Of a stretch of DNA of 36,504 bases, positions 8,891-32,222 are shown piece by piece. This DNA comes from Candidatus Saccharimonadota bacterium (lineage in GTDB: Bacteria > Patescibacteriota > Saccharimonadia > Saccharimonadales > Saccharimonadaceae). The notes under the pieces are model-generated. The model ran no database searches, was not told where the DNA came from, and was given only the letters and a program-made list of their open reading frames with translations. Position numbers and translations under genes: made by a program. How positions within the stretch are numbered: position 1 is the first letter of the stretch; each line of letters starts with the position of its first letter. The stretch lies in NCBI GenBank assembly GCA_017447485.1, contig JAFSNI010000008.1:1-36504 (forward strand), in the 5' to 3' direction.

Positions 8891-9241
8891 TGGTGGAGCT
8901 GCCGGATACTGCCTCCGGGTCCGAGCTATCACGTGGTTACGATTCTACATACATAGTCTTCTGTTTCATTTTAGCAAATATCGTCAGCTGCAAAAGACTA
9001 AACTGACGATTGCCGTGGCTGATTTTTCGAGCTGTGCGGCGCCGCCCGCACGGCCTTATTCCCGTTGTATGATAATTTACGTTCTACGGAACCTCAAACG
9101 CAAACCAGCCTAGAATTTAGGCATAAGCTGGCATGTATGCAACATGCGCAGTTTTCGTGTTTTTAGCACTTATTAATACTTACGGTATTTAATCGGTATG
9201 CCTCGTAACTGTTAATAGTCCGTCTAAGCTTTGTCAGCCCC
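8891..9241 (-). ncRNA. ssrA: Transfer-messenger RNA (tmRNA)
   Basis: tmRNA rescues stalled ribosomes and adds a degradation tag to the unfinished protein. The 5' end GGGGCTG pairs with CAGCTCC before the encoded ACCA, giving the tRNA-like acceptor stem. The T-arm region carries GGACCCGGAGGCAGTATCC, with a T-loop unlike the usual TTCRA. The length is 351 nt, normal for one-piece tmRNA. The tag frame begins at the GCT at 9167-9165 and runs to the TAA at 9119-9117, encoding AKNTKTAHVAYMPAYA (16 residues), after a 5' flank ATAAGT that corresponds to ATAGTC in E. coli. A TGT-TAAAAT -10 with TTGTCT 17 bp upstream (9252-9280) probably drives it. The exact tag frame is inferred by analogy. Confidence 0.9.
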
Positions 9242-9523: not shown

Positions 9524-11038
9524 ATGATAAGCAAAATATATTCAGCAATACCGTATGGCTTCGACGGCAAAATGGTAGAAGTCGAGGGGGACATGAATCG
9601 CGGGCTTCCCGCGTTTAATATTGTGGGCATGGCAAATAAAACTATCAATGAGGCGCGAGAGCGCGTTCGAAGCGCAATCGTGAACTCGGGTTTTAGTTTT
9701 CCGGACAAGAAGGTCACGATTAGTCTCGCGCCGGCCGATCTAGAAAAAGATGGTTCACACCTGGATTTGCCAATAGCGTTGTCAGTTCTCATGCTGTCTG
9801 GCCAGCTTCTAAAAATGGACGTTCTGGACAAGCTGTTTGTCGGGGAGCTATCCCTAAACGGCGAGCTCCGTCCGGTTAGGGGCATAATTAATATCGTGGA
9901 GACGGCCAAGTTGCGCGGTTTTAAGGAGGTTTATGTGCCCCTCCAAAACTTGCAACAAGCGGCGATGGTGAAAGGAGTAACGATTTTCGGGGTGAGAAAT
10001 CTGCAAGATTTATTTTTGCAGTTAAAACAGCAAGGTGACGTATGCGAGACTAATTTGGATTTAAAACCGCCGAGAACGGCCAAAAAAGCGGTTTCTGGGC
10101 CATTTTTAGACCACATCCGTGGACAAAAAATCGCTAAACGCGCAATGGAAATTGCGATTGCAGGACATCATAACATCCTGATTTCAGGGCCGCCAGGGGC
10201 GGGAAAAACTTTGCTCGCAAAAGCAGCGGCGAATTTACTGCCGGATTTAACGGCGGAGGAAAAGATTGACATCACAAAAATCTACTCGATCGCCGGCATG
10301 GCGACGGACGAAGTGGTTGAGACGCGCCCATTTAGAAGCCCACACCACACGGCAAGTACAACCTCTATTATCGGTGGAGGAACCGGGGCGACGCCAGGTG
10401 AAATTTCGCTAGCGCACAAAGGTGTATTATTCCTGGATGAAATACCAGAGTTTCAAAGACCGGTTTTAGAGGCGTTGAGGCAGCCCCTAGAAGATAAAAA
10501 GATTTCGATTTCGAGGGCTAACCGCAAGAATGTGTATCCGGCAGATTTTATGCTAATTGCGACGATGAATCCTTGCCCGTGTGGCTATCTGGGAGACCCC
10601 GCGCATGAGTGCAAGTGTTCAGAAAACCAAATCCAAAATTATCAGAAAAAACTCTCGGGACCGTTGTTTGATAGGATTGATATGTATGTCAGTGTTGAGA
10701 AAGTTGGTAACGAAGACTTAATGAAACCGGTCGTCGAATCTACAGAGGAGCATAATGTTGTAAAAAATACTATAACAGGGGCGTTGGGGCGACAAAAGGC
10801 CCGCTTTGGTCAAGACGGAATTTATAACGCTTCCCTTTCCTCCTTTCAAGTTTCAAAGCTCCTTAAAATGGAGCCGGCGGCCGAAAAATTGCTAGGCGAG
10901 GCTTCGGAAAAATTAAACCTCTCGGCGAGGGCTTATTTTAAAACTATCAAAGTGGCCCAGACCATCGCAGACCTAGAAGGGGCGGAAATTATCTTGGCAA
11001 AGCACCTAGCCGAGGCGTTGACATATCGAAAAAGATGA
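9524..11038 (+). CDS. comM: ComM/YifB-family Mg-chelatase-like AAA+ ATPase
   Basis: 504 residues, the usual length of the YifB/ComM family. In Vibrio, ComM is a hexameric helicase that promotes branch migration of incoming DNA during natural transformation. Seen: an N-terminal Lon-protease-like fold region (PYGFDGKMVEVEGDMNRG, then DLEKDGSHLDLPIAL), Walker A GPPGAGKT (about residue 221), HTASTTSIIGGG, Walker B LFLDEIPEF (about 300), and the cysteine-containing NPCPCGYLGDP typical of the family. The gene is intact. It lies upstream of infC, whose promoter -35 is inside the last comM codons. The start has no clear ribosome binding site and follows a -10-like element by 6 nt. Its presence suggests an ability to integrate foreign DNA. 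Confidence 0.93.
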   Translation: MISKIYSAIPYGFDGKMVEVEGDMNRGLPAFNIVGMANKTINEARERVRSAIVNSGFSFPDKKVTISLAPADLEKDGSHLDLPIALSVLMLSGQLLKMDVLDKLFVGELSLNGELRPVRGIINIVETAKLRGFKEVYVPLQNLQQAAMVKGVTIFGVRNLQDLFLQLKQQGDVCETNLDLKPPRTAKKAVSGPFLDHIRGQKIAKRAMEIAIAGHHNILISGPPGAGKTLLAKAAANLLPDLTAEEKIDITKIYSIAGMATDEVVETRPFRSPHHTASTTSIIGGGTGATPGEISLAHKGVLFLDEIPEFQRPVLEALRQPLEDKKISISRANRKNVYPADFMLIATMNPCPCGYLGDPAHECKCSENQIQNYQKKLSGPLFDRIDMYVSVEKVGNEDLMKPVVESTEEHNVVKNTITGALGRQKARFGQDGIYNASLSSFQVSKLLKMEPAAEKLLGEASEKLNLSARAYFKTIKVAQTIADLEGAEIILAKHLAEALTYRKR

Positions 11039-11046
11039 GGTATAAT
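11018..11046 (+). promoter_or_regulatory. Consensus promoter of the infC ribosomal operon
   Basis: TTGACA (11018-11023), 17 bp, TATAAT (11041-11046), both perfect. The -35 is inside comM and the comM stop TGA lies in the spacer. The predicted leader before the infC start is about 29 nt. Confidence 0.85.
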
Positions 11047-11081
11047 GTTTACAGGTTAATTCAAGAGAAGAAAGGACTACC

Positions 11082-11600
11082 ATAAAAACTACATCACGCA
11101 CCCGAATAAATGGAGAAATTCGTTATCCGGAGGTTCGCGTTATAGGTCCGAGCGGCGAGCAGCTTGGCATCATGTCAAGTCGTGAGGCGCAGCTTCTGGC
11201 GAAGGAACAGGGAGTGGACTTAGTGGAGATTGCCGCTAGTGCCAATCCGCCGGTCGTTAAAATCATTGACTGGGGTAAATACCAGTATCAAAAGATGAAA
11301 GAAGAGGCTAAAAATCGAAAGAAGGCTCGTGAAAAGCAGTCAGAGCTAAAACAGATGAAAATTGGCCTTAAGATTTCAGAGAACGACCTTAACATTAAAG
11401 TCCGAAAAATGCGTAGCTTTATTGAAGATGGCGACCGCGTAAAAATTATGATTGTCTTTCGGGGACGAGAGATGACTCATAAAGAAATCGGTCAAGAGCT
11501 ACTCGATAAAGTCGTTGGCATGATGGGGGAAGACGCCGTGGCTGAAGGTAAAGCACAATTTAACGGACGGAATCTATCAGTGCAGATTCGGAAGAAGTAA
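11082..11600 (+). CDS. infC: Translation initiation factor IF-3, starting at ATA
   Basis: IF-3 keeps 30S subunits free and checks start codons. The protein reads (M)KTTSRTRINGEIRYPEVRV and continues through GPSGEQLGIMSSREA, giving 172 residues, the normal IF-3 length. The first in-frame ATG (11172) would remove 30 conserved N-terminal residues. Upstream, no ATG, GTG or TTG occurs in frame after the stop at 11043. The codon at the expected first position is ATA, placed 5 nt after AAAGGA. E. coli infC uses the rare ATT, which lets IF-3 repress its own translation; ATA should behave in the same way, by inference. It heads infC-rpmI-rplT-rpmB and is preceded by a consensus promoter. Confidence 0.9.
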   Translation: MKTTSRTRINGEIRYPEVRVIGPSGEQLGIMSSREAQLLAKEQGVDLVEIAASANPPVVKIIDWGKYQYQKMKEEAKNRKKAREKQSELKQMKIGLKISENDLNIKVRKMRSFIEDGDRVKIMIVFRGREMTHKEIGQELLDKVVGMMGEDAVAEGKAQFNGRNLSVQIRKK

Positions 11601-11663: not shown

Positions 11664-11858
11664 ATGCCAAAACTAAAGACGCATAAAGGCACCGCGAAGC
11701 GGATTAAGATTACCGGTTCTGGTAAGATTACGCGCGAGCGGGCTTTCGGGAATCACATTCTCGCAAAAAAATCTAAGGCCAGGAAGCGCAACATGAAAAC
11801 TGCTGCAGCAATCAATGGCAAAATTAAGAAAAACATTAAGACTGCATTAGGGGTTTAA
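11664..11858 (+). CDS. rpmI: 50S ribosomal protein L35
   Basis: 64 residues, a normal L35: [20 protein letters not shown], followed by a lysine/arginine-rich segment KKSKARKRN. An AAAGGAAAACCT site precedes the ATG. It lies 63 bp after infC and 2 bp before rplT, the usual IF-3/L35/L20 order. In E. coli this operon is repressed by L20 binding to the mRNA; no matching pseudoknot was identified here by eye. Confidence 0.97.
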
Positions 11859-11860
11859 TC

Positions 11861-12208
11861 ATGAGAGTGAAACGTGGTGTAGCCGCAATGGCTCGACATA
11901 AGAAAATTTTGAAAGCTGCGAAGGGGATGCAGCATGCCCGCACTCGGAGCTTCCGACTTGCAAATCAGGGCGTAATTAAGGCCCTTCGATATAGCTACCG
12001 CGATCGTCGTAACAAAAAACGCGATCTCCGGGCGCTTTGGATTACACGCATCAACAACGCCTCGAGAGAGCTTGGCCTTTCCTACTCGCAGCTAATTGCT
12101 GGGATGAAGACGAAAAACATTAACCTCGATCGCAAAGTTTTAGCTGATCTTGCAGTGAATAATCCTGAAGCATTTAAGGCAATTGTTAACGCAGTGAAGG
12201 AGAAATAA
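11861..12208 (+). CDS. rplT: 50S ribosomal protein L20
   Basis: 115 residues, standard length. The N-terminus [20 protein letters not shown] and the central [20 protein letters not shown] match L20, an early assembly protein binding 23S rRNA. It follows rpmI by 2 bp, so translation is probably coupled. The C-terminal globular part ([20 protein letters not shown]) is present. Confidence 0.97.
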
Positions 12209-12436: not shown

Positions 12437-12466
12437 AAAATCCACCCTTTCGGGTGGTTTTTTGAT
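12437..12466. terminator. Bidirectional terminator between rpmB and rnpB
   Basis: CCACCC, loop TTTC, GGGTGG (12442-12457), with TTTTTT on the plus side and ATTTTTGATC on the minus side. It ends the infC operon and lies just after the 3' end of RNase P RNA on the other strand, so it serves both. Confidence 0.9.
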
Positions 12467-12467
12467 A

Positions 12468-12806
12468 TGAGCCATTGATAAGCCGGGTTCTGTACTCCCA
12501 CGAATGAAAGTGGCAATCATCTATCTAGATACTACATTGCTATAGTATTCGAGCGGTGAGCGTGCGTCCTCGGGCAGAGGCTAATAGCACTCCTTGCAAC
12601 AGGTAGGGTTTGCCTCCGCGCCGTATCGCTACAGTGCGCTGTGGGCTCTTACCCCACTCTTTTCACCCTTACTCCCGCGAACGGGGGCGGTATAAGTTTC
12701 TGTGGTACTTTCCCTATCCTTGCGGACGGTCGCCGTTAGCGACTACCTTGCCCTATGTTGCCCGGACTTTCCTCTTGGAAACCAAGCGATTGCCTTTTTG
12801 GCTCCC
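12468..12806 (-). ncRNA. rnpB: RNase P RNA (class A)
   Basis: This is the catalytic RNA that matures tRNA 5' ends. The universal segment GAGGAAAGTCCGGGC is present near the 5' end (plus coordinates 12760-12774) and ACAGAACCCGGCTTAT near the 3' end (12478-12493). These two form the conserved P4 core. GAGCCA near the 5' end pairs with TGGCTC at the 3' end as P1. The length is about 339 nt. A -10 TGA-TATAAT lies just upstream (12811-12819) and a terminator follows. The ends are approximate by a few nucleotides. Confidence 0.95.
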
Positions 12807-12849: not shown

Positions 12850-13725
12850 ATGACGGTAAAAGATTATTATTATCAACATTTTGAAGAGCTCGGCCCGGAA
12901 AAAAAGTTTCATTTTGCAACCAGAATGAAAAATTATTTTAAAACCCACGATTTTGATAGATATCTGGCAGATAACCGGCCTAGCGACAATTTAGCTGAGG
13001 TATTAAATAATAATGATTTTTCAAAGGTTAGTAATTATATTCTTCGGAAACCGTTTTTCGAGAAATACGACGGCGTTTATGGAGTAGAGGCAACGCTTTT
13101 TAGAGTGCATCATCTTTTGGCAGAATATAATTTCGATACAAGAACGAATTTTTTGGAACTTTATCCGCAAGATAGCCTATACAAGTTAGCAGACGATTTA
13201 ATGCGAGACGAAGAAGCCTTGAGAATACTGTCGACGTGGGCGGTTAATGTAATTTATCTAACCGAAGAGCTCTTCCCGAGAGGTAAAAATGTAATCCGAG
13301 AACTGTCGGAATGGGCGCTAAGACTAGATACAAAAACCTGCGACCCAACACTAATGTCTTATTTATGTACACACATCGTACTATGCGAGTCGAGCTTCTA
13401 TAAGAAGAATTTGCTAGAATCGCCGAATCTAAAAATCTTGAGAAAGTTAATCGAAAAAGACGCTGCGGTAGTCAGGGATAACATTGAGACGATTTCACTA
13501 GATGCTGCAATTGAATTTTTAGTTTGTTGTAATATGACGGGATTGGACTATCCAGAGATAAGGGCGGCGATTAGCAAGATTTGTAAAGGATTCAAAAAAG
13601 ATTCGCCATATTTGATAAATTATCGGCGCGCCAAATCTCCAGACAGTCATTTGCGCACGCTAAGTGGCGCTGAACACATTAATGTACTTTATATCATGAG
13701 TGGACTAGACGCAGATAATTATTAA
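12850..13725 (+). CDS. Hypothetical protein, predicted all-helical
   Basis: A 291-residue soluble protein that I do not recognise. It has no signal peptide, membrane helix or known motif. The composition (many Leu, Glu, Lys, Asp, Tyr) and segments such as EALRILSTWAVNVIYLTEEL and NVIRELSEWALRLDTKTCDP suggest a bundle of helices, possibly with a repeat-like, HEAT-type arrangement; this is inference. There are five cysteines (in KTCDP, YLCTH, LCESS, CCNMT and SKICK regions). It is transcribed alone from what appears to be a leaderless promoter divergent from rnpB, and its 3' end overlaps the ATP-grasp gene by 4 bp in a convergent arrangement. Confidence 0.8.
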   Translation: MTVKDYYYQHFEELGPEKKFHFATRMKNYFKTHDFDRYLADNRPSDNLAEVLNNNDFSKVSNYILRKPFFEKYDGVYGVEATLFRVHHLLAEYNFDTRTNFLELYPQDSLYKLADDLMRDEEALRILSTWAVNVIYLTEELFPRGKNVIRELSEWALRLDTKTCDPTLMSYLCTHIVLCESSFYKKNLLESPNLKILRKLIEKDAAVVRDNIETISLDAAIEFLVCCNMTGLDYPEIRAAISKICKGFKKDSPYLINYRRAKSPDSHLRTLSGAEHINVLYIMSGLDADNY

Positions 13726-14591
13726 TATTGAATAAGTTTTTTAAGCACATCAATTTTGGCATCAATGAATGAGCCCGAAATGAGTTGTGGCGTGCGATTG
13801 ACTTCAAGCACCGTTAAATCGCCCGTGCCTTTTTCCGCCAATATATCAGCGCCGGCAATCTTAATATCTAGAGATTTTGTGGCGGAAATAGCCAATTGGA
13901 GAATCTGCGGAGAAACCTGGTCAAGTGGCACCAAAGTGGCTTCACCGCCAAGCGAAGTATTGTTTCTAAAATCTTTACCACGAGAAGAGCGATAAATAGC
14001 TAACTTAGGTTCAAAATTAACCAGCACGATGCGCCAATCGCCCTCGTTAGGTATAAAATTTTGTAAAACAAAGCGCGTGTCTGGATTTTGTTCTATGATT
14101 TGGCGTAGTTCCGATTCTGAGTGAATTAAATAGTTGTCTCGACCTTTGGTTCCCTGTACTGATTTAAGAATGCACGGCAGTCCGAGCGCGTCTAATTTTT
14201 GAACCATAAACCCAACTGGTCCGAACACCGTTTTGGCAACTGGGATTTTAGATTCCCAAAAGCGCCACAAGGCATACAATTTGCCGTCTGTATTGGAAAA
14301 ACTGTCGTCTAACATGGTGACGCCATATCGGCGGCAATAACAAGCTAGTGCGCTAAAGATATAATTTTGGCGATGAAAGGCGGATGTCGCAAGGACGATA
14401 ACCTTAGAGAACTCTTTAATATCTTCTCCGGTAGAAAACAGAGTGATAGCAGTATTATTCCCATCGATGTAAAAAGAAAGGTTTCGGTATGAGCAGGTGG
14501 AAATTGCGGTTTTTTCATCGGAGAGCGACTGAATAAGAGGCTCATATTTGGCGCCGTCGTCGCTACCAACGATGAGTAAAATTTTCTTCAT
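13722..14591 (-). CDS. RimK-like ATP-grasp ligase, second gene of the rimB-rimK operon
   Basis: 289 residues with an ATP-grasp fold. ATP-grasp enzymes join a carboxylate to an amine through an acyl-phosphate. Seen: LPCILKSVQGTKGRDNYLI (nucleotide-binding strand with lysine and glycine-rich loop), RFVLQNFIPNEGDWRIVLV, and the metal-binding end IAGADILAEKGTGDLTVLEVNRTPQ (D and ExN). The N-terminal third (KKILLIVGSDDG) resembles a pre-ATP-grasp Rossmann-like domain but is divergent. It starts 3 bp after the rimK stop, so the two are one operon. The substrate is unknown; ribosomal or other peptide glutamylation is suggested by context only. Confidence 0.75.
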   Translation of the reverse strand: MKKILLIVGSDDGAKYEPLIQSLSDEKTAISTCSYRNLSFYIDGNNTAITLFSTGEDIKEFSKVIVLATSAFHRQNYIFSALACYCRRYGVTMLDDSFSNTDGKLYALWRFWESKIPVAKTVFGPVGFMVQKLDALGLPCILKSVQGTKGRDNYLIHSESELRQIIEQNPDTRFVLQNFIPNEGDWRIVLVNFEPKLAIYRSSRGKDFRNNTSLGGEATLVPLDQVSPQILQLAISATKSLDIKIAGADILAEKGTGDLTVLEVNRTPQLISGSFIDAKIDVLKKLIQY

Positions 14592-14594
14592 ATA

Positions 14595-29929: not shown

Positions 29930-30835
29930 TTATTGTTTTTGGGAAGAGCGAATTTGCTCTTCAAACCAGTCAATAATAAAATCTGGGATATTGATTTTGG
30001 TGACGGGGATAAAGTTCATCCAACCGGCGGCGAAGTTAGTTTCTAAAATGTAAAACTTTTGAGTTTTAGCATCCTTAATGATGTCGACGCCGGTGTAATC
30101 AAGGCCGGAAACCTCAGCGGCGCGGATGGCAATTTTGTTAAGAATTTTGATAGTTTCGGGGTCTTCTTCGATAAATTTGTGGCGGCCAGCGCTCCAGGCA
30201 ATAAAATCTTCGGGGTGATTTTCGTCGCCAGTCTTGCGCATAATGCCAACAGATTTACCGCCAATCACAAACACGCGCCAGTCGCATTCTGGTTCAATAT
30301 ATTGTTCAATTAGGAGATTACTAAAATCTTTAATTTTATCTAGCTCCGCTTCGTTTTTAACCAGCGTGATGTTTTTACCGGTAGTGCCAAAACGATACTT
30401 CAAAACGATGGGAAAAGAAACGCGTTTACCATCAATATAAGACATGACGTTTGCTTTATTTTTAGCCTCGTAGGTTGGGAGCGCGTAATCTTTAAGGAAA
30501 TCATCGAGCAAGAAAAGGCCTTGCTGAAAATGTTTGTCGGAAGTAGCGGCGCGAGCACCAACCGGTTCCCCGTTCATGATAATGCTACCGCGTTTCTTGA
30601 GATAATACAATAGACGCTCGGCTTCGGCATAATTATTGCCGGTGAGATTGCGGAAAATGACGTAGTCGAGCGGGAGATCATCTAGGTCAAAGCGGGCGAG
30701 CTTATCAGAATTGATAAATTTGATTTGGCGAAACCCCCAGCCGCGTTTTTCAGCGGCTGCTTTGAGGTCTTCGCTAATTTTCTGATTCTCGGGACGGCCT
30801 TCGATAATCGTGAGAACCTTATTTTTTGTGCTCAT
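29930..30835 (-). CDS. RimK-like ATP-grasp ligase in the surface-protein operon
   Basis: 301 residues. The N-terminal domain (LTIIEGRPENQKISEDL, then DYVIFRNLTGNNYAEAERLL) resembles a pre-ATP-grasp domain. ATP-grasp features follow: FPIVLKYRFGTTGKNITLVK, NLLIEQYIEPECDWRVFVIG and the metal-binding end YTGVDIIKDAKTQKFYILET with N three residues later. The reaction would be carboxylate-amine ligation using ATP; the substrate is unknown. Its first 17 bp overlap the end of the DUF11-like surface protein gene, so it is co-transcribed with two surface proteins. That context suggests modification or synthesis linked to the cell surface, which is inference. Confidence 0.75.
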   Translation of the reverse strand: MSTKNKVLTIIEGRPENQKISEDLKAAAEKRGWGFRQIKFINSDKLARFDLDDLPLDYVIFRNLTGNNYAEAERLLYYLKKRGSIIMNGEPVGARAATSDKHFQQGLFLLDDFLKDYALPTYEAKNKANVMSYIDGKRVSFPIVLKYRFGTTGKNITLVKNEAELDKIKDFSNLLIEQYIEPECDWRVFVIGGKSVGIMRKTGDENHPEDFIAWSAGRHKFIEEDPETIKILNKIAIRAAEVSGLDYTGVDIIKDAKTQKFYILETNFAAGWMNFIPVTKINIPDFIIDWFEEQIRSSQKQ

Positions 30836-32222
30836 CGGGTTTTTGGTTGAGATTTTTTGCGTTCTTCTCTTTAGATTCAGTCGGATTTTGTGGTGCGGAC
30901 GGGTTTTTGGTTGAGATTTCTGCGGCGGATTTTTGGTCGCTAATTTTCTCTGTGGTGGATTTCTTGCCAGCGGCTTTATTTTCCACTTTCTTCAAAGTGC
31001 GACGAGTGCGCCAGAAGTAGAAGCCGGCACCGATGATGGCAAGAATCACTAGGACTGCCATTGTGATTTCTAGCGGGCCAGTTTCGACGATTTCTTCTGG
31101 GAGAGGTTCCGGATCCGGTTCTGGGTCTGGGGTTGGCTCTGGCTCTGGAGTGCCCTCGCAAACCACGAAGACATTGGCGTCATTCATAAGATTTTGGTCG
31201 GAGTTATAGCTCGCGGTGATAGTATTCTTCAAAGTTTTGCCGCAATAAGTTTCTTCCTCGGAGACTTTGGCTTGATAGATAACCTGGACGAGAGCGCCAG
31301 CGGCAGCATCGCCAGTGTTATGGCCACTAAGGTCAAGAATGTCGTCGATAATCTTGCCGGAGACGTTGTTGACGTCATAAATCGTGGTGGTACCAGAGCG
31401 GAGTGCGAGGCCAGCGTCGTGAGTGTCTTTAAAGATGACGTTGGTGAGGTTGGTGTTGCCCTCGTTCTTGAAAACGACTTTGTAGGTGACGTAGTCGCCC
31501 GGTTTGGCATTAACAGATTCGGACCAGTTCTCGCCGTCTAGCGAAACTTGTTTTTCAAGTGAAGCGGCAGTGCGTTCAGCGACGAGTGTGTAGGTGATGT
31601 AGCCAGAATATTCGGCGCAGCCTGGGATGCGGCCATCAAGAGTATTGATGCCGATATAAGTGCCAGCTTCGGTGAAAAGGTCGGTCGAGAGGACGGAACC
31701 GTTGACGCGGCCGGCGTTGTGAATGATGGCGGTACCGGTTTTATAACGCAGAGTGACTTCGTCGTAATCAGTGGTAACGTAGGCTTCATCCCAAACTTTC
31801 GGCGGATTGCTATCAGTGGCGGAGATGATGCCACTGATCATGCCCTCTTCGTCTTTTTTAACGACGGTTGGATAGGCGGATGAAACTTTAACGCCGTTGG
31901 CGATGCCTTTGCCGCTCGGGTTAAGATTAGAGGCAGCGTTGTTGTGGTAATAAATATAAACTTCGTATTCTTTGCCCGGTTCGATTTTGAGGCTATCGAC
32001 ATATTGGATAGAGTCACCGCCAAGTTCTGCGACGCGGACGAAATTGCGCTCGTCGCCGATGGCGGCGTTGTTGGTGATAGAGTTAAAAGTAACCTCTGGC
32101 GCAGGGTCATTGTTAGTGTAAGTGGTGCGCTCGGGGCCCCAAGCAAAGGTCGGGGTGGCGAGAATGGTCGCTGATGCGAACGTGGCGATGAGGGTTAAAG
32201 TATATCTCTGGATTTTTTTCAT
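30819..32222 (-). CDS. Secreted, membrane-anchored protein with DUF11-like domain
   Basis: 467 residues. The start was placed at MKKIQRYTLTLIATF, which has AAAGG 7 nt upstream and begins a signal peptide (about 1-27, cleavage after PTFA). The extracellular part has beta-rich segments and a DUF11-like repeat (ASLEKQVSLDGENWSESVNA, then PGDYVTYKVVFKNEGNTNLT and NVIFKDTHDAGL), common in surface stalk and adhesin proteins. Two cysteines (CAEYSG and YCGKTL) and a third in VCEG may form disulfides. A Pro/Glu/Asp linker (EPEPTPDPEPDPEPLPEE) leads to one membrane helix (about 382-403) and a lysine-rich cytoplasmic tail of about 64 residues. VETGP before the helix resembles a sortase signal, but the long tail argues against it. 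Confidence 0.8.
   Translation of the reverse strand: MKKIQRYTLTLIATFASATILATPTFAWGPERTTYTNNDPAPEVTFNSITNNAAIGDERNFVRVAELGGDSIQYVDSLKIEPGKEYEVYIYYHNNAASNLNPSGKGIANGVKVSSAYPTVVKKDEEGMISGIISATDSNPPKVWDEAYVTTDYDEVTLRYKTGTAIIHNAGRVNGSVLSTDLFTEAGTYIGINTLDGRIPGCAEYSGYITYTLVAERTAASLEKQVSLDGENWSESVNAKPGDYVTYKVVFKNEGNTNLTNVIFKDTHDAGLALRSGTTTIYDVNNVSGKIIDDILDLSGHNTGDAAAGALVQVIYQAKVSEEETYCGKTLKNTITASYNSDQNLMNDANVFVVCEGTPEPEPTPDPEPDPEPLPEEIVETGPLEITMAVLVILAIIGAGFYFWRTRRTLKKVENKAAGKKSTTEKISDQKSAAEISTKNPSAPQNPTESKEKNAKNLNQKPDEHKK

Follow-up and report, generated by a model that had tools for sequence, protein, structure and literature searches.

Translation initiation factor IF3 discriminates against the start codons AUU, AUC and AUA, but not against NUG (PMC4611024), and several infC genes, which encode this factor, are described as beginning with a codon of the first kind. 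In E. coli, infC starts at AUU and, as far as summarised in PMC5472188 and the references given there, the control is lost when this codon is changed to AUG. For S. aureus, initiation at AUA has been detected by Ribo-Ret (retapamulin ribosome profiling) and autoregulation has been proposed (PMC13009471). The gene starts at ATC in Streptomyces (PMC5472188), at ATT in B. subtilis (PMC6097659), and at ATT, with peptides, in Xanthomonas (PMC5559785). No paper that treats Saccharibacteria and infC together was found in the literature searched.

The window, i.e. the whole stretch of 36,504 nucleotides analysed here, belongs, as contig 3, to a genome of 612 kb. The closest named genomes are labelled 'Candidatus Saccharibacteria' and come mostly from the ruminant gut, and the genus includes Ca. 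Nanosyncoccus alces. The features of the infC region are collected in Table 1.

Table 1. Features of the infC region, in window coordinates.
Feature	Position	Strand	Evidence or remark
infC (translation initiation factor IF3, 172 aa)	11082..11600, including stop codon	+	TIGR00168 174 bits; PF05198 95 bits
infC start codon ATA	11082..11084	+	in frame with the IF3 ORF; conservation of place and class; substitution periodicity
Shine-Dalgarno AAAGGA	11071..11076	+	sequence; 5 nt spacing to ATA
sigma-70 promoter TTGACA-17-TATAAT	11018..11046	+	12/12 consensus; ~30 nt upstream of ATA
internal ATG (Met31), earliest standard start codon; not accepted as main start	11172..11174	+	
rpmI (L35), ATG start, control gene	11664..11858	+	
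rplT (L20), ATG start, control gene	11861..12208	+	

The first-pass annotation had placed an ATA directly before the IF3 N-terminus and behind AAAGGA, had seen no standard start codon in frame after the upstream stop, and had stated that the first ATG would delete 30 conserved residues. All of this holds. The stop is the TAA at 11043-11045, the codons from 11046 to the ATA read TGT TTA CAG GTT AAT TCA AGA GAA GAA AGG ACT ACC ATA, with no ATG, GTG or TTG among them, and a start at ATG 11172, the first such codon in the frame, would cut exactly 30 residues off IF3. The protein is IF3 by its match to TIGR00168 (cut-off 60 bits), position 3 of which aligns to residue 5 in the profile search, and the part that would be lost is covered by the solved IF3 chains, which align from residue 2 on. 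Among the gene-sized, family-matched open reading frames checked in this 36-kb window, infC is the only one whose family profile begins before the first ATG, GTG or TTG. The observation is thus confirmed, and ATA 11082 is the only possible infC start in the window.

Two further features of the window can be mentioned here. The tmRNA and the RNase P RNA, with the positions 8891-9241 (-) and 12464-12805 (-), lie on either side of comM/yifB-infC-rpmI-rplT-rpmB on the opposite strand, and two RimK-like ATP-grasp ligase genes, at 13725-14594 (-) and 29933-30991 (-), are present in this 36-kb part of a minimal genome.

Homologues of infC were gathered from the window's genus, family, order and phylum and from named GTDB contigs. 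The invariant N and I residues in R-x-N-x-x-I served as the anchor for all loci, of which 274 distinct ones remained after duplicates had been dropped. With the start assigned from reading frame and Shine-Dalgarno (SD) sequence, 207 of the 208 distinct loci of the order (Saccharibacteria) begin with ATC (95), ATA (68) or ATT (44), collectively ATH. The groups agree closely (genus 103/104, named Saccharibacteria 26/26, the family's other genera 29/29, the order's other families 49/49), and the ATA at the window's infC can therefore not be ascribed to chance. The control genes in the same pieces of DNA behave differently, rpmI starting with ATG in 202 cases and GTG in 3, and rplT with ATG in all 149. 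The alignment of infC leaders suggested at first pass thus bears out the expectation that one of ATA, ATT and ATC is kept behind the SD sequence; it is the class that is kept, however, and not the codon itself, since the three swap freely. In the genus, ATA makes up ~38% of the infC start codons, compared to 7% of the internal Ile codons.

The history of the start codon's third base was followed on a tree computed from the coding sequence of IF3 with the start codon left out. This base has undergone at least 51 changes, with exchanges between A and C, C and T, and T and A, and none of them leads to G. One locus (L060), in which the homologous codon does not serve as a start, was left out of this count. 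For comparison, 23 fourfold columns in these genes have each changed ~70 times, and G is the outcome of 20.3% of the fourfold-site changes that start from A, C or T. The probability of 0 out of 51 is then ~9e-6, a rough value in view of parsimony, tree error and mutation context, although its direction is clear. At the infC start, this base is thus almost as unconstrained as a silent site, with G excluded. As read from the sequences, the rule is any of A, C or T and never G, which is exactly the class that IF3 rejects.

We consider it quite likely that infC is translated from AUA 11082 and that IF3 exerts feedback on its own mRNA, which together form the best explanation of the data. In the proposed mechanism, fMet-tRNA (anticodon CAU) would pair with the first two bases of AUA 11082, and the good SD sequence would anchor the 30S subunit although the third base is mismatched. 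Abundant IF3 would repress its own mRNA, because it makes initiation complexes unstable when the codon has a third base other than G, and scarce IF3 would release it, as in E. coli. Any NUG start would break this circuit, while AUA, AUU and AUC would be interchangeable for it, which would be the reason why the start drifts among the three. We infer the use of AUA by fMet-tRNA in the cell from sequence; the repression of infC is suggested by the known biochemistry of IF3 together with the never-G pattern.

The main alternative is that the ATH start merely holds IF3 synthesis low, with no IF3 feedback. The conserved pattern also fits selection for low expression, as comparative data cannot tell a weak start from a regulated one, and in S. 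aureus non-canonical starts yield ~10% of AUG expression (PMC13009471). However, expression could fall by other routes, such as a weaker SD sequence or a GTG or TTG start, and yet the SD sequence is strong and only the third base is protected. An SD match of at least 4 nt lies upstream of infC in 207/208 relatives, with a mean match of 6.0 nt, compared to 6.3 nt for rpmI. The 16S 3' end, GGATTACCTCCTTTCTAG in four relatives, contains CCTCC (anti-SD CCUCC); a search of the window's own assembly found no 16S gene. In addition, the E. coli control is conferred by the AUU codon itself (Butler 1987 and Sacerdot 1996, as cited in PMC5472188). A simple restriction of synthesis is therefore improbable as the full explanation.

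A special initiator tRNA that reads AUA was also considered and rejected: both tRNA-Met have the anticodon CAU, as has the only initiator tRNA found, the tRNA-Ile(UAU) appears to be an ordinary elongator, and AUA, AUU and AUC interchange. The initiator itself is unusual in another respect. In the window's genome (L377, G000:C4:21563-21639) it has the 1:72 mismatch and the A11:U24 pair of initiators, and its anticodon stem is U29:A41-G30:C40-G31:C39. A review describes the three initiator G:C pairs as highly conserved in all domains and states that IF3 shares in their selection (PMC7949028). In the order, U29:A41 replaces G29:C41, the first of these pairs, in 43 of 45 readable initiators (L377, L378-L426), the remaining 2 having GGG/CCC. 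Exceptions to the three G:C pairs exist in Mycoplasma and Rhizobium. A phylum sample of 27 initiators contains GGG in 17 cases, A29:U41 in 9 and U29:A41 in 1, which belongs to the same order.

One can speculate that the IF3 checkpoint of Saccharibacteria is set differently, with an initiator lacking the first G:C pair and an IF3-sensitive AUH start of infC by which IF3 is adjusted to the changed tRNA. If true, U29:A41 and the AUH start would together mean that the fidelity set-point of a minimal cell has been re-calibrated. No covariation of the initiator stem with the infC codon was found, and one genome (G107) has GGG and still uses ATT in infC (L171). We regard this idea as improbable. The U29:A41 finding is perhaps more novel than the infC start.

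The place where translation of infC begins can be examined through the substitution pattern. A start at the internal ATG 11172 would yield an IF3 of 142 aa that lacks the initial part of its N-terminal domain, and this ATG is indeed found in 130/130 genus-level sequences. However, this codon encodes a Met that is conserved in the fold and is replaced in 11/29 family and 31/49 order sequences, there is no SD sequence before it, and the conserved residues that would be dropped, e.g. RINGEIR...EVRV, are found in solved IF3 chains. In genus pairs, the substitutions at codon positions 1/2/3 number 3893/2810/21346 for the 21 codons that directly precede ATG 11172, a coding pattern that indicates strong protein-level constraint, and 9163/9405/20907 for codons 2-9. 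The 24 nt before the ATH codon, where the counts are 7351/10852/10425, are not coding. The three-base periodicity begins at ATH and not at ATG 11172, which means that coding begins at the ATH codon. These numbers refute the internal ATG as the sole start, and we consider it very improbable as the main one.

The same counts argue against a start further upstream, either at another non-standard codon in the window or at a standard codon in the relatives, as there is no coding periodicity in the 24 nt before ATH. An in-frame ATG, GTG or TTG does occur further 5' of ATH in 45 of the 208 order loci, but these codons are scattered and most of them coincide with the -10 box or precede it, and the frame in the window is closed at 11043. 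From the 12/12 promoter at 11018-11046 the transcript should begin near 11053, with an expected leader of ~29 nt, and no start codon upstream of this predicted transcription start is usable from that promoter. Where relatives possess an exact TATAAT, it is found 28-37 nt 5' of the start codon in 123/130. This alternative is likewise very improbable. A leader hairpin that masks the SD sequence was tried as well and rejected, the fold of 11053-11120 being weak (-2.6 kcal/mol).

Finally, shared ancestry is real, but an ancestral codon inherited without selection, or a sequencing or assembly error, for which no support was found, is scarcely credible, since separate assemblies agree in class in all but one case and the many third-base changes without any to G show that the start class is not mere inertia.

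The sole exception in the order is L060, from genome G342 of the same genus. Its SD sequence, AGAACGG, is degenerate, the ATH codon is absent, and an ATG lies ~10 nt downstream of the inferred transcription start. In E. coli, mRNAs that are nearly leaderless are likewise sensitive to IF3. The arrangement may represent either another solution or a loss; since both the SD sequence and ATH are gone, the circuit is either not absolutely required or takes another form there. Two genomes of the same genus (G188 and G234, 99% complete) give no IF3 match, which could reflect an assembly gap or a real loss. Among the near-complete relatives without an IF3 match, two cases are C-terminal fragments (L250, L251), and the remaining ones may be assembly gaps.

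Outside the order, 66 loci, mostly from the phylum's other classes, were considered. No standard start precedes the domain in 34 of them, 28 have a possible TTG, ATG or GTG start, and 4 have an SD-preceded ATH in addition to a standard codon without SD. The strict ATH rule is therefore, in this sample, a property of the window's order and not of all CPR. Among other Patescibacteria (L083-L108, L209-L248) the infC starts are very mixed (ATT, ATA, ATC, apparent TTG or ATG), one locus (L237) has a likely CTG start after AAAGGAG, and several leaders are without any SD sequence.

The results have consequences for annotation. The first-pass annotation expected automated gene callers to truncate IF3, and this is likely in the 162 of 208 order loci without any in-frame ATG, GTG or TTG before the conserved domain, with a median of 30 residues lost; in the 45 loci with an upstream standard codon, that codon could be chosen instead. 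IF3 is thus probably mis-started in many CPR annotations. More generally, the comparison of relatives yields a clear mark of selection on a start codon that is sensitive to IF3, in which the base drifts among three letters and avoids the fourth, and the IF3 circuit would have been kept in a genome of ~0.6 Mb. The never-G rule becomes testable across bacteria, and we did not meet the evolutionary argument in the cited infC papers.

Compared to E. coli, the IF3 gene is likewise the first of infC-rpmI-rplT and has a non-G third base behind an SD sequence. The codon is AUU there and AUA here, with AUA, AUU and AUC in the relatives, and the feedback is known in E. coli while it is inferred here. 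The upstream neighbour is a comM/yifB-type gene in place of thrS, the gene upstream of infC in E. coli. The Streptomyces, B. subtilis and Xanthomonas genes share the ATH start, which is often misannotated, and differ in codon and lineage. S. aureus belongs to another phylum and has the same codon, AUA, with experimental evidence there and comparative evidence here (PMC13009471); the earlier suggestion of ATA as a different-codon solution peculiar to the CPR has therefore to be abandoned. Non-AUG starts of infC, AUA included, are thus already known, and the Saccharibacteria ATA is a well-supported new case of this phenomenon.
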